NCBI GenBank assembly: GCA_900299025.1
Contig: OMIE01000155.1
Span: 1-35,982, forward strand
Direction of reading: 5' to 3'
Source of the DNA: Burkholderiaceae bacterium
GTDB lineage: Bacteria > Pseudomonadota > Gammaproteobacteria > Burkholderiales > Burkholderiaceae_E
DNA: 35,982 nt
The notes beneath the pieces are model-generated. The model worked only from the letters and a program-made list of their open reading frames with translations, was not told where the DNA came from and did no database searches. How positions within the stretch are numbered: the first letter of the stretch is position 1; each line of letters starts with the position of its first letter. The translations under genes were made by a program, and so were the position numbers. Shown here in pieces: positions 584 through 27,461 of this stretch.

Positions 584-1621
584 ATGGAAGACAGCAAGCA
601 AAAGCTCGAGCGTGCCAAGGCTTTGTCGGCAGCCTTATCGCAAATCGAAAAACAATTCGGAAAAGGCTCGGTCATGCGCATGACCGACAAAGAGATTGAA
701 AACGACCTTGAAGTGGTATCCACTGGCTCACTGGGTCTTGATTTAGCACTGGGTGTTGGTGGATTACCTAGAGGCCGCGTTGTTGAAATTTACGGCCCGG
801 AATCCTCCGGCAAAACGACGCTCACCTTGCAGGTGATTGCCGAGATGCAAAAGCTCGGGGGTACTTGCGCTTTCATCGACGCCGAACATGCGCTTGATGC
901 CCAATACGCACAAAAGCTCGGGGTAAATCTGGCTGATTTACTTATTTCACAACCTGACACCGGTGAGCAGGCCTTAGAGATCGCTGACGCGCTGGTTCGA
1001 TCGGGTTCGGTTGATTTGATCGTAATCGACTCGGTTGCAGCCCTAACGCCAAAAGCCGAGATCGAAGGCGAAATGGGCGACTCACTTCCCGGCCTACAGG
1101 CTCGGTTGATGAGTCAAGCGCTTCGCAAGCTTACAGGCACGATCAAGCGAACCAACACCCTGGTGATCTTTATCAACCAGATTCGCATGAAAATCGGGGT
1201 GATGTTTGGTAATCCTGAAACCACGACAGGGGGTAACGCACTGAAGTTTTACGCGTCGGTGCGGCTCGATATTCGCCGCACCGGATCGATCAAAAAAGGC
1301 GATGAAGTCATTGGTAGCGAGACCAAGGTTAAGGTTGTGAAAAATAAGGTGGCGCCACCATTCCGTCAGGCCGACTTCGACATTTTGTATGGTGAAGGCA
1401 TTTCACGTGAGGGCGAGATTCTCGATTTAGGCTCTGAAGCGAGCATCATCGATAAGAGCGGTGCCTGGTATTCCTATAGTGGCGATCGCATCGGCCAGGG
1501 TAAGGACAACGCTCGTGAGTATCTCCGTGAGCGGCCTGCGCTCGCTCTAGAAATCGAAAACAAGCTTCGTGCGCATCACGGTGTAGCTCAACGTGGCCTT
1601 AGCGCGCCGGAGGCCAACTGA
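584..1621 (+). CDS. recA: Recombinase RecA
   Basis: RecA is the ATP-dependent strand-exchange protein of homologous recombination and the co-protease that triggers LexA cleavage. The 345-residue product has the Walker A motif [10 protein letters not shown] at about residues 70-79, the Walker B segment [10 protein letters not shown] near 145, and the RecA signature [14 protein letters not shown] near 220-235. The core is nearly invariant. The C terminus ends RGLSAPEAN and lacks the strongly acidic tail of E. coli RecA. A ribosome site AGAGG (572-576) precedes ATG 584. An SOS box lies upstream, and recX follows with a 4-base overlap, so the two are probably co-transcribed and translationally coupled. 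Confidence 0.98.
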
Positions 1622-2052
1622 AAGATTCGTCGCTGATTCAGCGTGGTCTCGCGGCGCTTGCGCGCCGCGAGTATTCCGCTGCCGAACTTAAGCGTAAATT
1701 GGCAGCCCATGCGGCGTCCGACGAAGCGCTTGAAGAAGCTCTTAAGGCGCTGAAAGATCGTGGCTACCTTTCAGAGGAGCGTTTCGCCGAATCGTTTATT
1801 AGGCGGCAGGCAGCGCGTAAGGGCACATCCTTTATTAAGCAAAGTCTTAAACAGCATCAACTGCCAGCCGAACTCATTGCAACGGTGACTACCGATTTGC
1901 AAGCCAGCGAAGAGTCGCGTGCGAGACAACTTTGGGAGCGACGCTTTGGCGAGGTGGCACTCGATCCCAAAGAACGCTTGCGGCAAATGCGCTTTTTAGC
2001 CTCGCGAGGTTTTTCTCACGATGTGATCCGCCGTATCGTCCGTCAGGATTAA
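1618..2052 (+). CDS. recX: Regulatory protein RecX, probable CTG start
   Basis: RecX binds RecA filaments and limits RecA activity. Family features include the opening helix [15 protein letters not shown], then [19 protein letters not shown], and near the end [18 protein letters not shown]. The conserved N-terminal helix lies upstream of the first ordinary start in this frame (TTG 1699), so a start there would cut the protein. Reading back, the frame is open into recA. CTG 1618 sits 4 bases after GGAGG (1609-1613) and overlaps the recA stop (CTGA), giving a 144-residue protein of usual RecX length. CTG 1633 is an alternative without a well-placed ribosome site. The identification is firm; the rare CTG start is inferred from conservation and the ribosome site. 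Confidence 0.87.
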
Positions 2053-2100
2053 CAAGGCTGTCGCAACACCGTAGCAACCCCCGTGATACCATCACCGCAC

Positions 2101-2140
2101 ACGGTGCCTGGGCCTCAGGCGCAGGCTCGAAGAACACCGT
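2101..2140 (+). other. Nested inverted repeats in the recX-sucC spacer
   Basis: ACGGTG (2101-2106) is complementary to CACCGT (2135-2140), and inside it GCCTG (2106-2110) pairs with CAGGC (2116-2120). The structure sits 18 bases before the sucC start. No T-run follows, so an intrinsic terminator is unlikely. It could be a leader structure or a processing site in the sucC mRNA, or chance in GC-rich DNA. Confidence 0.3.
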
Positions 2141-2158
2141 CTGCTAGGGGTAATCCGC

Positions 2159-3325
2159 ATGAAAATTCACGAATATCAAGGCAAGGAGCTGCTGCGTCAG
2201 TTCCATGTACCTGTTCCCAAAGGCAAGCCCGCGTTCACGGTTGATGAAGCGGTTGAAATCGCTCAAGAACTAGGCGGTCCGGTCTGGGTTGTCAAAGCGC
2301 AAATCCATGCAGGTGGGCGCGGCAAAGGTGGTGGGGTCAAACTTGCTCGATCAATTGATGAGGTGCGCAAGCTAGCCTCAGAGATCCTTGGGATGCAACT
2401 CATCACCCACCAGACCGGTGCAGCTGGCCAAAAAGTAAGGCGCTTGCTGATCGAGGAAGGCGCTGATATCCGTAAAGAGTTCTATGTGGGTATCGTGACC
2501 GATCGAATCACCCAAAAGATATGCGTGATGGCTTCATCTGAAGGGGGCATGGAAATTGAAAAAGTTGCCCATGAGACGCCCGAAAAGATTCTAAAGGCCT
2601 TTGTTGAGCCCTCCGAAGGTCTTGCTGATGCAGAGGCTGCAGCCCTTGCAAAGGGGATTGGGATCCCCGATGCCTCAGTGCCGCAGGCTGTGGATGTGCT
2701 CAAGAAGCTGTATCAAGCCTACTTCGATACCGATGCATCCTTGGCCGAAATCAATCCGCTCATCCTGACCGGTTCTGGCGATGTTCGTGCGCTCGATGCG
2801 AAGTTCAATTTTGATAGTAACGCCTTGTTTCGGCATCCTGAGATTGTTGCTTTCCGTGATCTTGATGAAGAAGATCCTGCCGAGATTCGTGCCAGTCAGT
2901 TTGATCTTGCCTACATACAGCTCGATGGCAATATCGGTTGCCTGGTGAACGGCGCTGGTTTGGCGATGGCCACGATGGATACGATTAAGCTCTTCGGCGG
3001 TGAGCCTGCAAACTTTCTCGACGTAGGGGGTGGTGCCACCACCGAGAAAGTCACCGAAGCCTTCAAGATCATGCTTGACAACCCGAAGCTTAAGGCAATC
3101 CTGGTCAATATTTTCGGCGGCATTATGCGTTGCGATGTGATCGCGCAAGGTGTTGTGGAAGCTTGTAAAGCTGTGAGCCTCTCGGTGCCGCTTGTGGTTC
3201 GTATGAAGGGCACCAACGAAGACTTGGGCAAGCAAATCCTCAGAGATTCGGGCTTACCAATCATTTCTGCCGACACCATGGCCGAAGCAGCCGAGAAGGT
3301 TGTTGCTGCGGCCAAGGGCCACTGA
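2159..3325 (+). CDS. sucC: Succinate-CoA ligase [ADP-forming], beta subunit
   Basis: Beta subunit of succinyl-CoA synthetase, which makes ATP (or GTP) and succinate from succinyl-CoA in the TCA cycle. The 388-residue product is the same length as E. coli SucC. It opens with the typical [15 protein letters not shown]. An ATP-grasp domain follows with [15 protein letters not shown] near residues 46-60 and the metal-binding segment AEINPL near 198-203. The CoA-ligase domain has GGGATTEKV and [13 protein letters not shown] near 285-330. A ribosome site AGGGG lies about 9 bases before ATG. sucD follows after 22 bases, so the two subunits are made from one message. Confidence 0.98.
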
Positions 3326-3347
3326 TTAACCATTCGGGGTCTATCCG

Positions 3348-4229
3348 ATGAGCATTCTGATTAATAAAGACACCAAGGTCATCACCCAGGGAATCACTGG
3401 CAAGACGGGTCAGTTCCATACAAGGATGTGCCGCGACTATGCAAACGGCAAAGCCTGTTTTGTTGCAGGCGTGAATCCAAAGAAAGCCGGTGAGGATTTT
3501 GAAGGTATCCCCATTTATGCCTCAGTTAAGGACGCAAAGGCGTCGACTGGTGCAACGGTCTCGGTGATCTATGTTCCGCCAGCAGGTGCTGCGGCAGCGA
3601 TTTGGGAGGCAGTTGAGGCTGATCTCGATTTGGCTATTTGCATTACCGAGGGCATCCCCGTTCGCGATATGCTGGAGGTTCGCAACCGCATGAAGCGGGA
3701 AAACAAGCGAACCCTATTGCTTGGTCCAAATTGCCCAGGTTTGATCACGCCTGACGAAATCAAGATAGGCATCATGCCAGGGCATATTCACCGAAAAGGC
3801 CGCATCGGGATCGTATCGCGTTCTGGAACCTTGACTTATGAAGCGGTTGGCCAAGTCACTGAGTTAGGATTGGGGCAATCGTCGGCTGTCGGTATTGGTG
3901 GTGATCCAATCAATGGTCTGAAACACATTGATGTGCTTAAAATGTTTAACGATGATCCAGATACTGATGCGGTCATCATGATCGGCGAGATCGGTGGTCC
4001 CGACGAAGTCAACGCTGCACGTTGGGCTAAAGAGCATATGAAAAAACCTGTTGTTGGTTTTATTGCAGGGGTCACAGCGCCACCAGGCAAGCGCATGGGG
4101 CATGCAGGTGCCTTGATATCGGGCGGCGATGACACCGCACAAGCTAAGCTGGATATCCTGGAAGCTTGCGGTATTCGCACCACTAAAAACCCCTCTGAAA
4201 TGGCAGCTTTACTCAAGAAGGTCATGTAA
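3348..4229 (+). CDS. sucD: Succinate-CoA ligase [ADP-forming], alpha subunit
   Basis: Alpha subunit of succinyl-CoA synthetase. It binds CoA in its N-terminal Rossmann domain and carries the phosphorylated histidine. Visible motifs are ITQGITGKTGQFHT at residues 13-26, GPNCPG near 127-132, and GHAGALISGG near 248-257, which contains the active-site His. Its 293 residues are close to the usual 289-293. It forms the alpha-beta complex with the adjacent sucC product. Confidence 0.98.
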   Translation: MSILINKDTKVITQGITGKTGQFHTRMCRDYANGKACFVAGVNPKKAGEDFEGIPIYASVKDAKASTGATVSVIYVPPAGAAAAIWEAVEADLDLAICITEGIPVRDMLEVRNRMKRENKRTLLLGPNCPGLITPDEIKIGIMPGHIHRKGRIGIVSRSGTLTYEAVGQVTELGLGQSSAVGIGGDPINGLKHIDVLKMFNDDPDTDAVIMIGEIGGPDEVNAARWAKEHMKKPVVGFIAGVTAPPGKRMGHAGALISGGDDTAQAKLDILEACGIRTTKNPSEMAALLKKVM

Positions 4230-4231
4230 GC

Positions 4232-4256
4232 GCAGGCTATCTGCACTTCTTTTTTT
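4232..4256 (+). terminator. Weak possible terminator after sucD
   Basis: A short hairpin GCAG-gctat-CTGC (4232-4244) is followed within a few bases by a T-rich run (4247-4256). The 4-bp stem is short for an intrinsic terminator, so this is only a candidate for the end of the sucCD message. Confidence 0.25.
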
Positions 4257-4324
4257 ACGGTCAGGTGATCGGATCGTCTTGAATAAAGCGACCGTCGCTT
4301 GCTGAAGTACAAGGGAGCCTTGTT

Positions 4325-4480
4325 ATGAAAGAGAACGAAAGGCCGGTCGTTCGACGTGGTTTGGATGTTTCACGAGGATCGAAAGTGACCGAGGGTATGT
4401 CCTTGCTTACTTACCTCGGTTTATTGGCGAGTGCTGGTGTCATCACCAGCATGCTTGCGCGCTGGCTCTTGCAAGCCTAA
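4325..4480 (+). CDS. Small single-pass membrane protein, unknown function
   Basis: A 51-codon frame begins with ATG 4325, preceded by a good ribosome site AGGGAG (4313-4318). The product starts with a charged stretch (MKENERPVVRRGLDVSRGSK) and ends with a hydrophobic helix from about residue 25 (MSLLTYLGLLASAGVITSM, then LARWLLQA). That fits a small inner-membrane protein with a basic cytoplasmic N terminus. I do not recognise the family. It lies between sucD and the rubredoxin gene, same strand, and ends about 30 bases before the latter, so it may share a transcript with it. The strong ribosome site and composition favour a real gene. Confidence 0.6.
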   Translation: MKENERPVVRRGLDVSRGSKVTEGMSLLTYLGLLASAGVITSMLARWLLQA

Positions 4481-4509
4481 CAAGCTAAGCCACGCATAAG
4501 GGTGATTTG

Positions 4510-4689
4510 ATGACTGAGCAAGCGAATAAGACTTGGATGTGTTTGATCTGCGGCTGGATTTACGATGAAGCCGCCGGCTTGCCTGAAGAGGGTATTGCCG
4601 CGGGAACTCGCTGGGAGGATGTTCCCATCAATTGGACTTGCCCGGAGTGTGGCGCGAGAAAAGAAGACTTTGAAATGGTTGAAATCTGA
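4510..4689 (+). CDS. Rubredoxin
   Basis: A 59-residue rubredoxin: a small soluble electron carrier with one iron held by four cysteines. The two knuckles are visible as CLICGWIYDEAAG near residues 11-23 and CPECGARKEDF near 44-54, with the conserved GTRWEDVPINWTCP between them. ATG 4510 is preferred over the in-frame TTG 4507 because AAGGG (4498-4502) lies 7 bases before it. No rubredoxin reductase or alkane hydroxylase gene is next to it, so its redox partner is not evident here. Confidence 0.95.
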   Translation: MTEQANKTWMCLICGWIYDEAAGLPEEGIAAGTRWEDVPINWTCPECGARKEDFEMVEI

Positions 4690-4818
4690 GTTGCAGGACC
4701 AGGCTTTGACTTAAACGATTATCTCGACGCCAAACTAATTTTCCCGAAGCTAAACCATTCTTTTTAGCTATGTGGACATGCTTCCGTGAGCATGCTTTGA
4801 AGCATTGCTCGTTTCGCG

Positions 4819-6417
4819 TTAAAGCTTTGCTCGCTTGACGACTTGATAACGTTCTAAGGTTTTCTTTCGGGCTTGATCGTGATTAACGATCGGCAAGGGG
4901 TAGTCGCTGCCAAGTTTGAATCCAATTGCCTGAGCATCGAGTCCTCCCATTTCCCAGGGGGCGTGAATTTGCTTGTCTGAGAGTTGTGCGATCTCAGGAA
5001 GGTAGCGGCGGATAAAGCGCGCCTCCCGATCAAATTTTTCACTCTGGCTCACGGGGTTGAAAATACGAAAGTAGGGTTGAGCGTCGCAGCCGCTAGATGC
5101 CGCCCACTGCCAACCACCATTATTGGCAGCAAGATCAAAATCAAGCAGGTGCTGGGCAAACCATGCTTCACCCCAGCGCCAATCAAGCCCTAAGTCTTTG
5201 CACAAAAACGATGCGGTTACCATGCGAAGGCGATTGTGCATATAGCCGCTTTGCAAGAGTTGCCTCATGGCTGCATCGACAAGTGGATATCCGGTTTGCC
5301 CATGACACCAGGCCTGAAAGTCCGCTGACGCTTTCGACCCATCCTCCCAAGCGATGAGGTCATATTCGGGCTTAAAGGATTGGCGCACAACATGTGGAAA
5401 GTGATACAGAATTTGCATGTAAAAATCACGCCAAATCAATTCGCTCAGCCAGGTCTGAGCGCCCGAGCTTGCGGCTTGCAGAGCCAGACGGGTGAGTTCT
5501 CGAATGCTGATCGTTCCAAACCTTAAATGTACCGATAAATAAGACGGTCCTTTGAGTGCAGGGAAATCACGTGCCTTATCGTAGCGATCAATCCTGCCAG
5601 CAAAATCCTTCAAAAGAGCTCTCGCGCCGTTTGCTCCGACTGGCACGCGAAGTTGGCTTAAGTTAGTGCTACGAAAACCAATCGCCTCGAGACTAGGCGG
5701 GGTCCCAAACCACAAGCCCCAGTCTCTTGAGTGTGCAAGGGCGCGACAGGCTGATTGTTGCGCTGGATCAGGCGCCATTAATCGGCGCTGATCAACCTTG
5801 GCTTCAGCGATAGCTTCTTGCTGTGCCGCAAGTCGCTTAAGCCAAGACTGCTTATAGGGTGTAAAAACACTATAAGGTTTAGACGCCTGCGTCAGTATCT
5901 CGCTGCGCTCAAAAACAACATGATCTTTATACGAAAAACAACCAATTTGCATGGCCCTAAGCGCTTGCGTGAGGTGGCCATCACGACAAAGCGCATAGGG
6001 ATCATCATCGTGATTAAAAAATACCGCGTCCACGGCAAGCGCTTTGACTAGTTCTGGCAAAGCGTCCTGGGCATGTGCATGAACGGTGATTAAACTGCCT
6101 GCCAGCGCAGCACCGCTCTCAAGGCTTCGTAGACTTTCCCAAATAAACTCTACACGCCGATCGGCGCGATCGGGCAGTGCATCCAAAATCGCCCGATCAA
6201 ACACAAAAAGCAATTGCACCGATTCAGATAAATGACAGGCATGGGCAAGCGCCTGATGATCGTCGATACGCAAGTCGCGGCGCAGTATCACAAGGCTTCG
6301 CCGATAAGGGCGTGAGCTAGGCTTGATGCTGCCTTGTCTGCTGTTTTCTGCGCCTACGCTCACGGGCATTTCCTCATGGCATTTCCTGGTAAGCAGTCCT
6401 TGACGGACCTGATGCAC
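4819..6417 (-). CDS. phrB: Deoxyribodipyrimidine photolyase (cryptochrome/photolyase family)
   Basis: A light-driven flavoenzyme that splits cyclobutane pyrimidine dimers. The alpha/beta antenna domain begins at about residue 41 with SLVILRRDLRIDDHQAL. The FAD-binding helical domain holds the family signature NNGGWQWAASSGCDAQPYF followed by RIFNPVSQSEKFD near residues 430-465. Length is 532 residues if translation starts at GTG 6417, which follows AGG at a 5-base spacing. ATG 6369 would give 516 residues but its AGGA lies only 2 bases away. The first 40 residues are not part of the conserved fold, so the start is uncertain. The gene is alone on the reverse strand between rubredoxin and a divergent SDR gene. 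Confidence 0.95.
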   Translation of the reverse strand: MHQVRQGLLTRKCHEEMPVSVGAENSRQGSIKPSSRPYRRSLVILRRDLRIDDHQALAHACHLSESVQLLFVFDRAILDALPDRADRRVEFIWESLRSLESGAALAGSLITVHAHAQDALPELVKALAVDAVFFNHDDDPYALCRDGHLTQALRAMQIGCFSYKDHVVFERSEILTQASKPYSVFTPYKQSWLKRLAAQQEAIAEAKVDQRRLMAPDPAQQSACRALAHSRDWGLWFGTPPSLEAIGFRSTNLSQLRVPVGANGARALLKDFAGRIDRYDKARDFPALKGPSYLSVHLRFGTISIRELTRLALQAASSGAQTWLSELIWRDFYMQILYHFPHVVRQSFKPEYDLIAWEDGSKASADFQAWCHGQTGYPLVDAAMRQLLQSGYMHNRLRMVTASFLCKDLGLDWRWGEAWFAQHLLDFDLAANNGGWQWAASSGCDAQPYFRIFNPVSQSEKFDREARFIRRYLPEIAQLSDKQIHAPWEMGGLDAQAIGFKLGSDYPLPIVNHDQARKKTLERYQVVKRAKL

Positions 6418-12102: not shown

Positions 12103-12855
12103 ATGATTTATAGCTTTGCGATCTTGCTGATGCTCGGTGTTGGTGCGATGATCTGGGCGATCTGGACATCATATCGTTCTGCATTCAGTGACAGCCTTGG
12201 TACGTTACGTCAGTGGCGTCAGTGGCATCACGATTCGCTTGCATGGTCACGGGCTGATGCAGCAGTGAAGCCTGGTGAGAGGCGATGGCGTATCCGCCGC
12301 AAGCTGAGCGCGATCGAGTCTGCTACGCCTGAACTCTTGAGCTTTCTTGCACGAGCGATTCGTGCCGGGCATTCGCTACCGACAGCCGTTCTTTGGGCGG
12401 GCGAAAGTTTCCCCGGGCCCTTGGGCGAGGCATTTTCACGTGTTCGAACGCAATTACATGCGGGTATGCGCTTGCAAGACGCTCTCGATGACCTGGCTGC
12501 ACGTTTTCCGCTTGCCGAACTTCGCATGCTCGTTCTCGGACTTCGTATTGCCCAGGATCTCGGTGGGCCGCTTCCAGATCTGCTTGATCAGTTGGCGGCA
12601 AATAGTCGCGCGAGGCTCAGGTTACGAGCTCGAGTGAAGGCGCTTTCTGCTGAGGCGCGATGGTCAGGATGGTTTTTGGGTTTGCTCCCGCTTGCGATCG
12701 CAAGCGGTTTGAGTGTGTGGCGTCCCGAACATATGGCTGTGCTGTGGCATGACCCACGCGGCCAGGTGCTGAGTTTGGCCGCGCTAGGTTTAAGTCTTTG
12801 CGGAGCCCTATGGATGCGATCCATGGTGCGACATGTTGATCGACATGAGGACTAG
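12103..12855 (+). CDS. tadB: Tad pilus inner-membrane platform protein TadB
   Basis: A GspF-type platform protein of Tad pili. The T2SSF domain is visible from about residue 73 (TPELLSFLARAIRAGHSLP), with GPLGEAFSRVRTQLHAGM near 103-120 and LGLRIAQDLGGPLPDLLDQL near 145-164. There is one N-terminal membrane helix and two C-terminal helices. At 250 residues it is somewhat shorter than common TadB proteins (about 300). It partners TadC, whose start follows the stop by one base. Confidence 0.88.
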   Translation: MIYSFAILLMLGVGAMIWAIWTSYRSAFSDSLGTLRQWRQWHHDSLAWSRADAAVKPGERRWRIRRKLSAIESATPELLSFLARAIRAGHSLPTAVLWAGESFPGPLGEAFSRVRTQLHAGMRLQDALDDLAARFPLAELRMLVLGLRIAQDLGGPLPDLLDQLAANSRARLRLRARVKALSAEARWSGWFLGLLPLAIASGLSVWRPEHMAVLWHDPRGQVLSLAALGLSLCGALWMRSMVRHVDRHED

Positions 12856-12856
12856 T

Positions 12857-13633
12857 ATGGTGACAAGCACAAGCGCCAATCGCCCTAAGCAAGTCTTGGC
12901 CGATCGTGTTGGTAGAAAGCTTAAAGCAGCGTTTGTAGAACGTTTCGATAAGCGATTTCAATATTCAATGGTTCACATGGGTTTGCGACACCCTATACCC
13001 ATGCGCGCACTTCAAATGCTTCGATGGCTCGCTATCGTATCTGGTACTGGGCTGATCGGATTTGCGATCTTGTTTTTGCAATCGACGGCTCAAACCATGG
13101 TGTTCGCCTTTGGAGTCATCATCACTTGTGCGATTGATGCTGTGGTCCATGTTCGTGCTAAGCGTCGAACTGCAAAGTTTGAGTCAGAGTTACCTGATGC
13201 GATCGATTTGCTCACGCTTGCCATGGACGCTGGGCTTAGCCTTGATGCGAGTTTGCACCGAATTGCGATCGACCTGCCAGCGCGTTCACGACTACTTGGT
13301 GATGAATTTTTAGCCTTAAGCCTCGCATTGCGTTCGGGCCTTGGTCGCGCTGAAGCGCTAGCTGATATGGCCTGGCGTTGTAATGCTAAGTCGCTGGAAA
13401 GTCTTGCGTCCTTGGTTGCTCAGGCTGAACGTCTTGGGACCCCGATGATCGACGCGGCAAAGGCCCTAGCCCAAAGCATGCGTCAACAGCGCGAATTTGA
13501 CGCTGAAGAGCGCGCAGGACAGATCGCTGTCAAGCTCGTTGTGCCCTTAGTACTTTGTATGTTGCCTGCGCTCTTTGTCGTGCTACTCGGGCCTGCACTT
13601 TTGCAAGTGAGCGATGTGCTTAAGGAGTTATGA
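12857..13633 (+). CDS. tadC: Tad pilus inner-membrane platform protein TadC
   Basis: The second GspF-type platform protein. The T2SSF domain starts at about residue 108 with ESELPDAIDLLTLAMDAGLS. LGDEFLALSLALRSGLGRAE follows and then LASLVAQAERLGTPM. The C terminus is a hydrophobic hairpin (VPLVLCMLPALFVVLLGPAL). ATG 12857 is chosen over the in-frame ATGs 12833 and 12845 because GAGG (12847-12850) precedes it at a 6-base spacing. Its stop is directly followed by the ATG of the fatty acid hydroxylase-like gene (TGAATG), so the two are tightly coupled. Confidence 0.88.
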   Translation: MVTSTSANRPKQVLADRVGRKLKAAFVERFDKRFQYSMVHMGLRHPIPMRALQMLRWLAIVSGTGLIGFAILFLQSTAQTMVFAFGVIITCAIDAVVHVRAKRRTAKFESELPDAIDLLTLAMDAGLSLDASLHRIAIDLPARSRLLGDEFLALSLALRSGLGRAEALADMAWRCNAKSLESLASLVAQAERLGTPMIDAAKALAQSMRQQREFDAEERAGQIAVKLVVPLVLCMLPALFVVLLGPALLQVSDVLKEL

Positions 13634-14389
13634 ATGCTAGATCTTTCGACAGGTTATCTACAAGCGTTGCTATGGTCTGCTGCGCTTTGGCTTGCTCTGC
13701 CGCTTACTGTCAGTCTTTGCGCGGGTCGCGAAGCATCGTTCCATGATTCGAAGGATCGTGAAGCCAGGGCGCTTAATCTTGGTTTTTGGCTTTTTGAAGC
13801 CTTAGCGCTTGGGCCGGTGCTCTGGCTTTTTAGCTTTTTTGGTTTGGGTGTTGGCCAACACCAACCGGCATCGACTCAGATCGATGGTTTAAGCGAGCAA
13901 ACCCTGAGCTTTATGCTCTCCTTTTTACTTGCTTTATGGCTTGGTGACGGCATAGCCACCCTTCGGCATCGACTTGAGCACACGCGCTACTTGTGGCCTA
14001 TCCATGCATGGCATCACACGGTCGATGCCAGCGATTGGTTGCAAACTCATCGCCATCATCCATGTTCGCGGATCATCGCCTTTTTTTGCGAGGTGGTCTT
14101 ACTAGCCCTGATGCTTGATGTATTTTTTGGAACCATACCCTGGCCGGCCATGCTTTTGGCAATGGCCTGTCGTCGTGCGTACGCAATTTGGCTGCATGCA
14201 GGCTCTGATTGGGGGATGGACCTATGGATCGCCCGATTGATTGTCCTACCTGGACACCATCGCGCGCATCATGCCGGTGCTCCGATTTATAGCGGTATGT
14301 TTCATCACTGGGATGTGTTCTTTGCAGTCTGGGGCAAAGGGCCAAGTCTTTATCGCCTCAAGGCTGTGCGCAATATCTCAGCCGATTGA
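13634..14389 (+). CDS. Sterol desaturase / fatty acid hydroxylase-like membrane protein
   Basis: A 251-residue integral membrane protein with the His-box pattern of the fatty acid hydroxylase superfamily: HRLEH near residue 117, HAWHH near 130-134, HRHHP near 143-147, and HRAHH plus HHWD near 215-235. These histidines normally bind a di-iron centre that oxidises lipids. Several hydrophobic segments surround them. AAGGAG (13622-13626) lies at the end of tadC and the ATG follows the tadC stop without a gap, so it is probably expressed with the pilus genes. Its substrate is unknown and a link to pili is unexpected. It converges with gspC. Confidence 0.85.
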   Translation: MLDLSTGYLQALLWSAALWLALPLTVSLCAGREASFHDSKDREARALNLGFWLFEALALGPVLWLFSFFGLGVGQHQPASTQIDGLSEQTLSFMLSFLLALWLGDGIATLRHRLEHTRYLWPIHAWHHTVDASDWLQTHRHHPCSRIIAFFCEVVLLALMLDVFFGTIPWPAMLLAMACRRAYAIWLHAGSDWGMDLWIARLIVLPGHHRAHHAGAPIYSGMFHHWDVFFAVWGKGPSLYRLKAVRNISAD

Positions 14390-14396
14390 TCCCAGG

Positions 14397-14873
14397 TTAG
14401 CGAATCAAGCTCTCACGTTTGGGCAATTCGATGCGCAGCGTTTGACCCAAAGCACCTTTTGACAGGCCTGGTAAAGGCTCAAGTATGGCCGCATCCTGTT
14501 GAATTGATCGGATACGGTAAGCGCCGATAGGTTCACCCGCCCGATACACCTGAGGCTTCTCGCCTGCTGCATTGGCCACGATACTGCTGTCCGTACCTGC
14601 AAACACAATGCCATGAAGCTTGATGTCGGGTGGGGCCATGTCAAGGGCTTGCTCAGCGGGTTTGCTAAAGAGCAAACCAAGTGCTTCAGCAGCTTGCTTT
14701 GAGGCATTACCACTAAGCTCAAGCGCCGGAGCAAGCGAGGCTGTCGGTGCAGACAGGGGCTTTGGCGCAACCCACTTGCTTAGCCAGTACGCGATCAAGT
14801 AAGCGAGTGCGATGGCAAGAACCGCACTAAGTGCTCGTGACCAGATTGGAAGGCGTGCTTGATTCGGTGTCAT
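14397..14873 (-). CDS. gspC: Type II secretion system inner-membrane protein GspC
   Basis: GspC links the inner-membrane platform to the secretin GspD. The 158-residue protein has one N-terminal membrane helix (ALSAVLAIALAYLIAYWLSK, residues 14-33), a Pro/Ala-rich linker, and a homology-region domain with IKLHGIVFAGTDSSIVAN near 84-101 and YRAGEPIGAYRIRSIQ near 110-125. It stops soon after this domain and has no PDZ domain, unlike E. coli/Vibrio-type GspC; short forms are known in Burkholderiales. It is divergent from gspG, and the 87-base spacer probably carries both promoters. The family call rests on the homology-region pattern and context. Confidence 0.85.
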   Translation of the reverse strand: MTPNQARLPIWSRALSAVLAIALAYLIAYWLSKWVAPKPLSAPTASLAPALELSGNASKQAAEALGLLFSKPAEQALDMAPPDIKLHGIVFAGTDSSIVANAAGEKPQVYRAGEPIGAYRIRSIQQDAAILEPLPGLSKGALGQTLRIELPKRESLIR

Positions 14874-14889
14874 CTTGGGTTGTTATGAT
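14859..14889 (+). promoter_or_regulatory. Possible gspG operon promoter
   Basis: TTGATT (14859-14864) and TATGAT (14884-14889) resemble -35 and -10 hexamers, but the 19-base spacer is longer than the optimum. The site lies 70-100 bases before gspG and overlaps the start of the divergent gspC. It is a pattern match only. Confidence 0.3.
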
Positions 14890-14960
14890 AGCTGCAAGGC
14901 AGGCAATCAGCCTCAGCGCGGAGAATCAGCGCCTTTGCTTTCCACCTACACGCGAGTACT

Positions 14961-15482
14961 ATGAACCGAACTGATAGCGTCAACAAGCCATTGACCCAAG
15001 GCTTTCGAGCTGGGCTGGGTCTGATTCACGACAGTGCTGGCCTAAGCCGACGTAAGGTGGGCGGGATTCGAGGTCAGGCCGGGCTGACCTTGATCGAAAT
15101 TATGGTGGTCATCGTCATTATCGGCGTGCTCGCAGCGCTCATTGTGCCAAGGGTGATGACCCGACCTGACGAGGCAAGAGCGGTGGCAGCCAAGCAAGAC
15201 CTTGCTTCGATCATGCAGGCCTTGAAGCTTTATCGGCTTGACAACCAGACATACCCGACCGCGGAACAAGGTCTTGCGGCACTGGTCACCCGCCCGAGTG
15301 TCCCCCCTGAGCCAAGTCAATGGAAATCCTACCTCGATAAGCTACCCGTTGACCCTTGGGGGCGGCCTTATCAGTATTTAAATCCGGGGCTTAAAGGTGA
15401 AATCGATGTCTTCAGTTGGGGCGCTGATGGCAAACCCGGGGGCAGTGGTGTCGATGCTGATGTGGGAAACTGGACCCTCTAG
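14961..15482 (+). CDS. gspG: Type II secretion major pseudopilin GspG
   Basis: Main subunit of the type II pseudopilus. Prepilin processing is predicted after Gly41, giving LTLIEIMVVIVIIGVLAAL with Glu at +5. The C-terminal domain has the GspG features AKQDLASIMQALKLYRLDN, YPTAEQGLAALV, PVDPWGRPYQYL and DVFSWGADGKPGG, the last being the calcium-binding loop. The leader of about 41 residues is long; GspG leaders are usually under 15. No closer in-frame ATG exists between 14961 and the cleavage site, though a GTG or TTG start downstream cannot be excluded. First gene of the forward gsp cluster. Confidence 0.95.
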   Translation: MNRTDSVNKPLTQGFRAGLGLIHDSAGLSRRKVGGIRGQAGLTLIEIMVVIVIIGVLAALIVPRVMTRPDEARAVAAKQDLASIMQALKLYRLDNQTYPTAEQGLAALVTRPSVPPEPSQWKSYLDKLPVDPWGRPYQYLNPGLKGEIDVFSWGADGKPGGSGVDADVGNWTL

Positions 15483-15507
15483 GCTTTGCCTTGTTGATGA
15501 CTCGAGC

Positions 15508-16029
15508 ATGAGGTCGCGATTAAGGCTTCGTGCGGATAAGGGCTTTAGCCTCATCGAGGTCTTGGTGGTGCTTGTTGTGTTGGCAAGCGTGATCGTGATT
15601 TCGACGCTATCGCTTCAAGGCCTACAAAGCAGAGGCCTCACGCTCGAGGCTGAGCGGCTTGGCGCGCGAATTCATGCAGCTCAGGACGAAGCAAGGCTGC
15701 TGGCGCAAGCGATTCGATTGGAACTTGACGACCGAGGTTATCGGTTTTATCGCAATCAGCTTGGCCGCTGGCAATTAATTGAAGGCGATGAACTGCTCAA
15801 GCCACGGGCCTGGGAAGCCTTTACCGAATGGCGCACCGACAGCATTGCCTTGCGTCAGCATCCTGGTGGCGTCGATGTGGCCAAAGGCGCGGTCGTAAGC
15901 CCTTCATTCTTTCTTGCGATCGGTGCAGAGCCTATCGGTTCGCCCTGGTCGCTTGTGCTGTGGAGGGCGGGCCAAGGCGTAAGCTTACAAAGCGATGGCA
16001 TTGGTCCGATTAAGTACAGAACGCTATGA
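15508..16029 (+). CDS. gspH: Type II secretion minor pseudopilin GspH
   Basis: Minor pseudopilin with a 12-residue leader ending DKG and mature start FSLIEVLVVLVVLASVIVIS, Glu at +5. The C-terminal domain of about 140 residues fits GspH (EAERLGARIHAAQDEARLLA, then YRFYRNQLGRWQLI). ATG 15508 lies 25 bases after the gspG stop. The frame is open further upstream inside gspG, but a start there would give an implausible leader. Its stop overlaps the gspI start (ATGA). Confidence 0.9.
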   Translation: MRSRLRLRADKGFSLIEVLVVLVVLASVIVISTLSLQGLQSRGLTLEAERLGARIHAAQDEARLLAQAIRLELDDRGYRFYRNQLGRWQLIEGDELLKPRAWEAFTEWRTDSIALRQHPGGVDVAKGAVVSPSFFLAIGAEPIGSPWSLVLWRAGQGVSLQSDGIGPIKYRTL

Positions 16030-24757: not shown

Positions 24758-25972
24758 ATGGCTGCCTTTCGCTTTGAAGCTTTACGTGGCGATGGTAAGC
24801 GCGAGAGCGGTTATCTTGATGCGGAGTCGATGCGTCATGCGCGTTCAATCCTGCGCGAGCGTGGCTTATTGTGTTTGCAATTAGATCGTTCGGAACAGCA
24901 AAAGGCTCAAAGTCGTGATATCGCTTGGTTATCAGGAAAAGTCAAAGCGAGCTCCCTTGCAAACGCAACCCGACAGCTAGCAAGTCTTGTTGCCGCAAGA
25001 CTGCCGCTTGAGCGGGCATTGCTTGCCGTGGTGGAGCAAGCCGAGGAAAAGCGCTTACGTGATCTGATTTCGGCGGTACGCAGTGAAGTGGTTGCCGGTC
25101 AGTCCCTGGCACAAGCGCTAGCCGCTTATCCGCGTGATTTCCCTGAAACGTACCGTGCGGTGATTGCAGCGGGTGAGCAATCGGGTGATTTGGCACCTGT
25201 TCTTTTGCGACTGGCCTCGGATTTAGAACGGGCGGGACAACTAAGCCAGAAGATTGGGCTTGCCATGGTCTACCCTGCGATTGTGAGTTTGGTTGCGATG
25301 GCGGTCGTGATCGCATTGATGAGTACTGTGGTGCCGCAAGTGGTCCAGGTTTTTGCAAGTACCCGACAAACCCTACCCTGGCTCACTCAGGCCCTGATCA
25401 CTGTTTCTGATGCAATCCTGGCTTATGGCCTTTATGCAGCAGCAGCCGGCTTTGTAGCGGGTTTGCTCTTTTATCGGGCGATGCAAGGCAAAGGGTTTCG
25501 GCGTCTTGTCCATCGGCGCTTGATCAGCATGCCAGTGCTAGGTCGATTGATCGTCGATTGGAATACGGCGCGTTTTGCTTCAACACTGGCCATGCTCGTG
25601 GCCTCAGGGGTGCCCTTAATGCAGGCATTAGTGGCTGCGGCAAGTACGGTAGGCAATCTTGTGATGCGTGAGGCGGTGATGCTTGCGCTCGAACGTGTGC
25701 GAGAGGGCATGAGTTTGTCGAAGGCCCTTGCCGATGCCCCTGGTTTTCCGCCGCTACTTAAACACCTGATCGCAAGCGGCGAGGCCACTGGGGATCTTGA
25801 CAAAATGCTTGATCAGGCCGCCGTCGTGGCAACTGCTCAGGCCGAGCGTAGGGCACTTTTAACCACCAGCATCCTTGAGCCATTCATGATTCTTGTGATG
25901 GGAGCGATCGTACTCACCATCGTCCTGGCGGTCATGATGCCGATTTTGGATATGAATGCTTTGGTGAGGTGA
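24758..25972 (+). CDS. gspF: Type II secretion platform protein GspF
   Basis: A polytopic inner-membrane protein with two T2SSF domains: one from about residue 68 (NATRQLASLVAARLPLERAL) and one from about 270 (ARFASTLAMLVASGVPLMQA). Three membrane segments are present. FFirst-domain and second-domain SGE motifs are AAGEQSGDL and ASGEATGDL. At 404 residues it is full length. Its last 17 codons and stop form the first copy of a perfect 55-bp direct repeat; the second copy lies 845 bases downstream, past the NYN gene. Last gene of the gsp cluster. Confidence 0.95.
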   Translation: MAAFRFEALRGDGKRESGYLDAESMRHARSILRERGLLCLQLDRSEQQKAQSRDIAWLSGKVKASSLANATRQLASLVAARLPLERALLAVVEQAEEKRLRDLISAVRSEVVAGQSLAQALAAYPRDFPETYRAVIAAGEQSGDLAPVLLRLASDLERAGQLSQKIGLAMVYPAIVSLVAMAVVIALMSTVVPQVVQVFASTRQTLPWLTQALITVSDAILAYGLYAAAAGFVAGLLFYRAMQGKGFRRLVHRRLISMPVLGRLIVDWNTARFASTLAMLVASGVPLMQALVAAASTVGNLVMREAVMLALERVREGMSLSKALADAPGFPPLLKHLIASGEATGDLDKMLDQAAVVATAQAERRALLTTSILEPFMILVMGAIVLTIVLAVMMPILDMNALVR

Positions 25973-25973
25973 T
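25919..25973 (+). repeat. 55-bp direct repeat, copy 1 (3' end of gspF)
   Basis: Begins ATCGTCCTGGCGGTC and ends GTGAGGTGAT. It is identical to 26764-26818 over all 55 bases; the flanking bases differ on both sides. It contains the last 17 codons and stop of gspF. With copy 2 it brackets the NYN gene. See findings. Confidence 0.95.
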
Positions 25974-26058
25974 TGTTTTCGATTGTGACTAGTGATAGGA
26001 TTTCGAAACGACTCACCCCTCGACCGCCTTGCAGGTTAAGGTGCTTTTGGGGTTGCGG

Positions 26059-26080
26059 GCCGCCTTTTGGCGGCTTCGCT
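26059..26080 (+). terminator. Hairpin between gspF and the NYN gene
   Basis: A perfect stem GCCGCC-TTTT-GGCGGC (26059-26074) is followed by TTCGCTTTTT. It looks like an intrinsic terminator for transcripts leaving gspF, but it ends only some 20 bases before the NYN start and sits beside its G-rich ribosome site (26085-26090), so it could instead control NYN translation or read-through. Confidence 0.5.
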
Positions 26081-26094
26081 TTTTGGGGGGCCTG

Positions 26095-26754
26095 ATGCGA
26101 ACAAAAGTTTTCGTTGATGGGTATAACCTTTACTACGGGTTGCTCAGAGGAACGAGACTTAAGTGGCTAGATTTGGTCGCTTTGTTTGAGCGGTATGTCC
26201 TGCATCCTTCACCGAATCTTTTAGAGGTCCGTTACTACACTGCGCCGGTACTAGCCAAGATGTGCGATAGCGCAGAGTCGGCGCGCCGCCAGAGGATTTA
26301 CCTACAAGCACTCAGGACCTTGTATCCAATGCGTTTGCAAATCGTTGAAGGTCGAATGGCAGCGACAAAACCATTTCTTCGTCTGGTAAGCCCCATCAAC
26401 GAGACGCCAGAAATCGATCGTGTTCAGGTTTATGATTTCACAGAAAAGAAAACGGATGTGAATCTCGCTTGCGACATGCTTAATGGTGCTTGGAAGGGCG
26501 AATTTGAGCAGGTGGTTGTTTGCTCAAATGATTCGGACCTAGAGGCTGCCTTCGCGTCAATCCGTAAATACCACCCACAGATTCGATTGGGGCTTGTTGC
26601 GCCGATTGCTCGCGCTGAAGCAAGATACATTGCCTCTGATCTAAAACAATACGCGCATTGGTCAAAAATCCTGAGTAAGTCTCATATTGCGCAGTCGCAA
26701 CTTCCCGAACGTATACCTGGATTGGGAATTCGTCGGCCGGATGCTTGGGCTTAA
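26095..26754 (+). CDS. NYN-domain protein (PIN-like ribonuclease family)
   Basis: A 219-residue NYN-domain protein. The fold is predicted to cut RNA with a metal held by conserved acidic residues, seen as TKVFVDGYNLYYGLLRG (Asp8 and Asn11), KKTDVNLACDML near residue 120, and VVCSNDSDLEAAFASIR near 141-157. The ending LPERIPGLGIRRPDAW resembles other stand-alone proteins of this subfamily, whose role is not established to my knowledge. ATG 26095 is used because the NYN fold starts right after it and a run of six G precedes it. The gene lies between two copies of a 55-bp repeat at the gspF end, which suggests insertion as a unit. Confidence 0.85.
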   Translation: MRTKVFVDGYNLYYGLLRGTRLKWLDLVALFERYVLHPSPNLLEVRYYTAPVLAKMCDSAESARRQRIYLQALRTLYPMRLQIVEGRMAATKPFLRLVSPINETPEIDRVQVYDFTEKKTDVNLACDMLNGAWKGEFEQVVVCSNDSDLEAAFASIRKYHPQIRLGLVAPIARAEARYIASDLKQYAHWSKILSKSHIAQSQLPERIPGLGIRRPDAWA

Positions 26755-26763
26755 GTTGCGCAA

Positions 26764-26818
26764 ATCGTCCTGGCGGTCATGATGCCGATTTTGGATATGA
26801 ATGCTTTGGTGAGGTGAT
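26764..26818 (+). repeat. 55-bp direct repeat, copy 2 (downstream of the NYN gene)
   Basis: Identical to 25919-25973. Here the gspF-derived sequence is not attached to a longer gspF frame and lies 52 bases before yqgE. Bases after this copy probably represent the original gspF-yqgE junction. See findings. Confidence 0.95.
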
Positions 26819-26870
26819 GGGTTGCAGCCCCGGTGGCTTGCTACACTTGGGCTTATCTTAAGGTCCAACC

Positions 26871-27461
26871 ATGACAGCGTCTCAACACCCCCAACACCCC
26901 GAGCATTTCACTGACTTATCCAACCACTTTTTGGTGGCGATGCCAGCTATGGCTGACCCCAATTTTTCGGGCACCGTGATCTATCTGGCAGAGCATTCAC
27001 CGAAAGGTGCGCTCGGTATTGTGGTCAATCGCCCGCTTGAAATTGACCTGGCCAATCTTTTCGAGCGCATAAGTCTTAAGTTAGACGATACGCGTTTTGC
27101 AAGCCAGCCAGTGTTTGCAGGCGGCCCTGTGCAAAATGACCGTGGATTTGTGCTGCATTCGCCCGCGGGGTCATTTAGTTCGAGTATCCATGTCGGTTCG
27201 GATATTGCGCTGACCTCGTCCAAAGATGTGCTTGAGGCTGTCGCCGAAGGCAAGGGACCGCGGCGACTCTTGATGGCATTGGGTTATGCAGGATGGGGTG
27301 AGGGTCAGCTTGAAGAGGAACTTGCAGCAAACGCCTGGTTAACCGTACCGGCAACAGCCTCGCTGATGTTTGATGTGCCTGTTGAAGAGCGCTTTCACCA
27401 TGCCTTTGGCCTTCTAGGTATTCACCCGATGTTTTTATCACCGGCCGCAGGGCATGCCTAG
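26871..27461 (+). CDS. yqgE: YqgE/AlgH family protein (UPF0301)
   Basis: A 196-residue UPF0301 protein of unclear biochemical role. Family motifs are FLVAMPAMADPNFSGTVIYL near residues 20-39, GALGIVVNRP near 45-54, GGPVQNDRGFVLH near 83-95 and GYAGWGEGQLEEELAANAW near 138-156. AAGG lies about 8 bases before ATG 26871. It overlaps ruvX by 8 bases, a very common pairing. Confidence 0.95.
   Translation: MTASQHPQHPEHFTDLSNHFLVAMPAMADPNFSGTVIYLAEHSPKGALGIVVNRPLEIDLANLFERISLKLDDTRFASQPVFAGGPVQNDRGFVLHSPAGSFSSSIHVGSDIALTSSKDVLEAVAEGKGPRRLLMALGYAGWGEGQLEEELAANAWLTVPATASLMFDVPVEERFHHAFGLLGIHPMFLSPAAGHA

Follow-up and report, generated by a model that had tools for sequence, protein, structure and literature searches.

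An NYN-family gene and a conserved structured RNA form a 790-bp insert behind gspF: a candidate type III-like RNA/RNase module

The described systems closest to the locus analysed here pair a small RNA with an RNase. According to the cited part of the source, type III toxin-antitoxin systems consist of one promoter, a small RNA, a rho-independent terminator and an RNase gene (PMC5086642), and the ToxIN, CptIN and TenpIN modules built in this way occur on plasmids and phages. In AbiF, as described in the cited part of PMC12373285, the toxic RNase is bound and neutralised by a structured RNA (Rfam RF03085) that the prophage encodes upstream of it. The cited part of PMC11346440 describes a Mn-dependent ribonuclease of the NYN family in Bacteroides fragilis whose gene lies at a type III CRISPR locus and whose proposed task is crRNA trimming; it reports no comparable small RNA partner there. 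The module described here has the layout of ToxIN, CptIN and TenpIN, including the occurrence on plasmids and phages, but its putative toxin is a NYN (PIN-like) protein and not ToxN, CptN or TenpN, and its inhibition by the RNA is a prediction. Like AbiF, it combines a structured RNA with an RNase gene, with RNA binding again predicted; unlike AbiF, which is a HEPN/Abi_2 protein, its protein is a NYN, and it does not belong to the AbiF family. With the Bacteroides protein it shares the NYN family and, as far as that source goes, a link with immunity. The PADLOC entry HEC-09 and phrog_7929 represent the same protein family, but as protein-only entries without an RNA partner. A search of the open literature, preprints excluded, found no paper describing an RNA that partners NYN proteins, which is weak evidence of absence. 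We consider a type III-like RNA/RNase module with a NYN toxin, inserted as a mini-islet, the best reading of the locus, and hold it with somewhat better than even confidence.

The window, that is the whole stretch of 35,982 nt analysed here, from a draft assembly of a Burkholderiaceae bacterium, carries this module between gspF and yqgE (Table 1). The module is bounded by a 55-bp direct repeat with zero mismatches between copies offset by 845 bp, which is far beyond chance, and the bases just past the repeat differ between the copies on both sides; the exact repeat with abrupt ends noticed in a previous, sequence-only reading was thus confirmed, coordinates included. We used window positions 25300-27461 as a query against the three other genomes of the genus (G001, G002 and G003). 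G002 and G001 each matched in two pieces sharing a 55-bp overlap: G002 has an uninterrupted gspF-yqgE junction with one repeat copy, to which the window flanks, joined without the insert, align gaplessly (718/755, ~95% of nucleotides), and G001 also has an empty site with one copy (joined flanks 612/761, ~80%). Nothing in G003, one of the three congeners searched, matched this query. The uninterrupted junction with one repeat copy in two congeners indicates that 845 bp were gained in the lineage of the window. A recent insertion behind gspF that left the gene whole, as proposed earlier, is therefore borne out, and the islet-free junction, for which a search of relatives had been suggested, is present in two of the three congeners. 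Fixation of the NYN gene in relatives, which would have spoken against an insertion, was not observed either (one of the four genomes of the genus and five of the 74 genomes of the family, own included). In contrast, the suggestion that zero divergence by itself points to active exchange was not supported: the same 55 bp are identical in G002 too, so the identity of the copies says little about the age of the event. As a separate observation, upstream of the gsp genes there is another cluster (window 12103-16029) that combines a T2SSF gene with one for a prepilin-like N_methyl protein.

Table 1. Features of the gspF-yqgE region, in window coordinates
Feature	Position	Strand	Remarks
gspF (target, 3' end duplicated)	24758..25972	+	ORF; Pfam T2SSF 1.3e-56
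Left 55-bp copy	25919..25973	+	Last 17 gspF codons, stop and one T
Insert proper, 790 bp	25974..26763	+	Missing in G002 and G001
-10-like hexamer TAGGAT	25996..26001	+	By eye against phage relatives; 6 nt 5' of the conserved RNA start
Conserved structured RNA (~77 nt)	26008..26084	+	Single-stranded ACGACUCA, then long interrupted hairpin, then terminator
Terminator stem-loop	26057..26076	+	T run after it, to 26084
NYN gene (putative RNase), 219 aa, intact	26095..26754	+	PF01936; PADLOC HEC-09; ends 9 bp ahead of the right repeat
Right 55-bp copy	26764..26818	+	Now outside gspF
yqgE	26871..27461	+	DUF179 3.4e-50; right neighbour at the empty site as well

By ORFs and Pfam, the 790 bp between the repeats hold the structured RNA and the NYN gene only, with no recombinase or integrase. 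The unit is thus integrase-free, as had been noted, but the single-gene cassette imagined from the sequence gives way to a module of RNA and RNase. Insertion-sequence hallmarks were absent (no transposase, and no inverted repeat shared by the ends of the insert), no attC was seen by eye at its 3' end, and its DNA gave zero matches to plasmids, even in a distant search mode. Direct repeats of the target 3' end, an intact target and an empty site in relatives are shared with integrative islands flanked by att repeats; a site-specific recombinase of its own is not found in the insert. One could also regard the repeat as an assembly or binning artefact arising from one k-mer overlap, or as a simple duplication that captured DNA, with no mobile unit involved. 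A length of 55 is a common assembler k-mer, and the genome is a draft of 180 contigs, in which the 900-bp stretch is present once. We nevertheless judge such an origin very unlikely: the insert directly abuts the repeats and holds a whole module whose parts make functional sense together, other assemblies hold comparable units with repeats of 24, 58 and 74 bp, and flanking repeats occur at other NYN loci more often than at control positions (see below).

The NYN protein matches PF01936 (E 7.9e-9; 36.6 bits against a gathering score of 24.2) and, over residues 2-218, the candidate defence family HEC-09 (E 1.9e-34); the HEC-09 and phrog_7929 profiles both match it and five relatives, and NCBIfam gave zero matches for the six NYN proteins. 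Residues D8, E117, D121, D146 and D148, which we take to be the catalytic acidic residues of NYN, are invariant in an alignment of 18 family sequences; RNase activity is predicted. The AlphaFold2 model (pLDDT 88.7, pTM 0.82) retrieved 2qip as best solved structure (E 4.8e-6), the single match at E<=0.001, and searching the PDB by sequence returned a single poor match (E 0.048). For the toxin candidate Pfam found only NYN and PADLOC only HEC-09, not ToxN, CptN or TenpN. Single-sequence scans found no close NYN relatives in viral contigs or genome contigs; alignment scans did find relatives.

The RNA upstream of this gene folds at -35.9 kcal/mol (z -3.54). The order in the window is that of promoter, RNA, terminator and NYN gene, with the promoter recognised by eye only: a -35-like TTGTTT at 25973-25978, also by eye, would span the repeat boundary, and a consensus pattern scan found no sigma-70 promoter by its rule near 25996-26001. 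In the window stretch Rfam had nothing to match the RNA at E<=5, nor over the RNA at E<=1 in sets of 17 and 10 loci, and RF03085 had zero matches in the same loci. The RNA family is clearly conserved and yet fits no Rfam family. In most of the regions inspected 130-260 nt 5' of NYN homologues we found a start of the ACUAC or ACGACUC type, then a hairpin with CCC/GGG as closing pairs, a terminator and the NYN start. Two sequence types could be distinguished, A (CUACUACCCC...) and B (ACGACUCACCCC...), the window RNA being of type B, and covariance models were built from 14 type A RNAs (R1) and from type B (R2). R2 gave 4e-11 for the window RNA, one of its training members. R1, trained without type B, had one match only in the window, at 26009-26085 (3.1e-4, in a smaller search than the genome scan below), and its matches to phage relatives of type B had E values of 1e-4 or lower; the two types are linked because this type-B-free model finds both. 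Under the strict filters of a scan of 399 genomes of the order, R1 did not report the window RNA at E<=0.01.

Covariation supports the structure. Among the 14 type A sequences, 12 of 19 pairs showed two-sided changes, with a covariation of 0.482 against 0.230 in shuffled and at most 0.162 in slid alignments. For the outer stem and terminator of 12 type B sequences the values were 5 of 11 pairs and 0.328 against 0.172 shuffled, and for the window RNA plus the eight relatives nearest to it 4 of 19 pairs and 0.208 against 0.126; the number of pair types did not exceed that of shuffles in these last two sets. We then used a GTDB test set, the best 80 of 534 loci obtained with NYN protein patterns (type A query), none of them in the training set. 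R1 gave 64 matches at E<=1e-4 in these best 80 of 534 loci, of which 61, in 61 loci, lay within 200 nt of NYN and three were not adjacent; such adjacent DNA makes up ~7% of the sequence searched; 19 of these 80 loci had no adjacent match at E<=1e-4. The matches down to E 1 (79, of which 78 distinct), in an alignment fitted to the R1 model, had two-sided changes at 19 of 19 pairs (0.636 against 0.192 shuffled, slides at most 0.114). R2 had no strong match in the same best 80 of 534 loci (best 0.0016), so a wide spread is established for type A. In whole genomes R2 gave many weak matches and for that reason only strong ones were used; all seven below 1e-8 were training members. A Thiothrix plasmid present in no training set (L014) has the RNA at 2941-3014 (R2 1.3e-13, R1 4.3e-7), with a NYN 53% identical to that of the window.

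The placement of the RNA bears on whether it acts on its own transcript. It was upstream on the same strand in 51 of the 61 adjacent GTDB matches, convergent downstream in eight and divergent upstream in two. The order of type III systems fits the first 51 and not the other 10, a further difference from those systems, as RNAs convergent or divergent to the gene occur in some loci. The three orientations suggest a trans-acting partner rather than a leader. A cis-acting leader, that is an attenuator or protein-binding site tuning a NYN protein with a housekeeping-type role in RNA processing, would suit the window and the 51 sense-upstream cases, in which a terminator stands right before NYN, and the CRISPR-associated Bacteroides protein, which trims RNA and is not essential for interference according to the cited part of PMC11346440, would be a precedent for such an enzyme. 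This explanation is unlikely in our estimation: it does not account for the 10 convergent or divergent RNAs, for a 120-aa ORF that separates RNA from NYN in L014, or for the conservation of the RNA where NYN is missing.

The RNA differs from type III antitoxins in being usually one hairpin unit instead of a tandem array; the window RNA contains no tandem repeats, and TRF detected tandem repeats of hairpin size in only one of 128 upstream regions. This was an E. coli plasmid (L047) with 33-nt hairpin repeats (2.6 copies by TRF, four by eye) before the terminator and NYN (at 2483), an array that resembles classical type III antitoxin repeats. We do not file the module as type III, because its putative toxin belongs to a different family and the window RNA has no repeat structure of that kind.

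Several genomes hold the RNA with a broken NYN gene or none. Over the 399 genomes of the order R1 had 11 matches below 1e-8, five of them training members with a whole NYN and six new. NYN fragments follow the RNA in four of the new cases, L086 and L092 by HMM and L089 and L094 by eye only, and none follows it in L095 and L096. Similarly, in a genus of six genomes NYN was found in G638 only, with one stop, and was absent from all five congeners, four of which (G828, G829, G827 and G825; loci L308, L309, L311, L313 and L314) have the RNA. Several NYN copies broken next to an intact RNA are as expected of a toxin. RNAs without NYN may be retained antitoxins; an RNA with its own role, or one that marks an insertion hotspot, may fit too. 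In this genus the RNA lies beside AbiEi/AbiEii in L308, beside a truncated AbiE-like stretch (by eye) in L309, near HigB genes in L314 and ahead of dsrC in L313. Orphan RNA copies were seen near dsrC in two of the congeners (L314 2468-2539, L313 2467-2541).

Such surroundings would be consistent with the structured element being a DNA mobility signal or insertion hotspot, recombined as a folded strand, that recruits toxin-antitoxin cargo of which NYN is only the commonest. In the G638 genus the element adjoins AbiEi/AbiEii or HigB genes or precedes dsrC, and it also adjoins repeats of the lptB tail. We hold this to be quite improbable, as the -10-like box and the terminator suit a transcript, the terminator pairing is preserved by compensatory changes, 61 of the 64 GTDB matches adjoin NYN, and the 47 viral loci scored show no enrichment of flanking repeats (1/47 against 2/245 controls). 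Alternatively, the RNA could activate the NYN RNase or direct it, as a cofactor or guide, instead of inhibiting it. The association independent of position and the strongly conserved structure would agree with this, and RNA-guided nucleases are thought, in the cited part of PMC12373285, to derive from RNA-toxin pairs of the AbiF type. We find a cofactor or guide hardly probable, since RNAs that outlast the decay of NYN are easier to explain for an antitoxin and an informal reading identified no variable guide-like segment.

What favours an RNA-neutralised RNase is the arrangement of the parts, the lack of a fixed place for the RNA relative to the gene, a patchy distribution on mobile DNA, and loci in which NYN has decayed but the RNA persists. 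According to this, a promoter, a structured RNA with its own terminator and a NYN RNase were inserted as a single 790-bp unit, with duplication of the last 55 bp of gspF. The RNA would be made in excess, bind the RNase and hold it inactive, while little RNase would be produced by read-through of the terminator. A drop in RNA, caused for instance by phage take-over of transcription or by loss of the DNA, could then free the RNase, leading to RNA degradation, so that the module could serve maintenance or phage defence. It would in this resemble type III toxin-antitoxin or AbiF-type abortive-infection modules, though the fold of its toxin is unrelated to theirs. If true, RNA-restrained RNases would reach beyond ToxN-like and HEPN folds to NYN/PIN-like nucleases, and a protein family listed so far only as a candidate defence gene would gain a concrete partner and mechanism.

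The distribution of the RNA-NYN pair is mobile and patchy, and includes plasmids and phages. NYN was found on 431 of 72,556 plasmids, in 10 of 5,426 E. coli genomes (plasmid-borne in every one) and in 17 of 399 genomes of the order. The alignment scan of viral contigs found 69 NYN loci, and 37 of the 54 scanned for the RNA had a match at E<=1e-4 with R1 or R2; in viral loci L232-L238 the NYN is 59-66% identical to that of the window.

Lastly, we looked at flanking repeats of other NYN loci by locally aligning the 430 nt that precede the RNA to the 500 nt that follow NYN, counting scores of at least 45, a cut-off picked after set 1; controls were overlapping, clustered windows of the same loci. 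In set 1, with three loci left out as too short, 6 of 45 loci (own included) reached the cut-off against 8 of 500 control positions, and in the GTDB set, with two of 80 loci also left out, 7 of 78 against 6 of 409. Pooled without the window, the counts were 12/122 against 14/909 controls (one-sided Fisher p 1.0e-5, with controls that overlap and are clustered), and 9/122 (p 6.6e-4) when L064, L075 and L153, whose repeats look like dispersed or simple repeats, were removed. Two other loci have repeats of a 3' end: that of tRNA-Phe in L074 (exact 24-bp repeat, unit of 940 bp) and that of lptB in L076 (58-bp repeat with differences, unit of ~1.06 kb). At the L076 site in G827 and G828 the left flank meets lptB within 20-26 nt and the NYN unit is missing. 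In addition, 74-bp repeats bound one comparable unit in another assembly. Repeats of a 5' end were found for hmaB (L177, and L067 by likeness to the hmaB start) and hsdR (L166, in which the gene was profiled, and L167 by likeness). In these four loci hmaB or hsdR follows the RNA-NYN unit immediately, and on the far side of the unit the 5' end of that gene recurs as a diverged copy. The lptB 3' end appears as a hotspot in the G638 genus (L308, L309, L315), with different small toxin-antitoxin or NYN units next to diverged lptB tails.

Together with the gspF case, these loci lead us to suggest tentatively, as a view somewhat short of even confidence, that an undescribed, phylum-wide RNA family pairs with HEC-09 NYN proteins and that the pair spreads as integrase-less islets of ~0.8-1.1 kb at gene ends (3' of gspF, tRNA-Phe and lptB; 5' of hmaB and hsdR) and duplicates the end in doing so, perhaps aided by a recombinase acting in trans. 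The small size, the lack of an integrase and a new target each time distinguish the NYN units from integrative islands. The geometry could have arisen through such a recombinase, through recombination of a circle that carried the gene end, or through staggered-break repair. If true, the module would be a clean system for how a recombinase-less, sub-kilobase unit enters gene ends. ARAGORN, run on 87 loci (27 and 60), placed a tRNA on the same strand as NYN, no more than ~300 nt upstream, in six (L012, L053, L068, L071, L193, L194), and beyond ~300 nt in L019. Integration at a tRNA site is supported in one case only, a tRNA 3'-end repeat being found only in L053/L074 and no good repeat in the downstream DNA searched at the other tRNA loci. 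Past the tRNA-Phe islet, L074 contains (1300-6000) a run of short ORFs, all on one strand, in which a PAYTAELKSNLKLG stretch recurs, resembling an integron cassette array.
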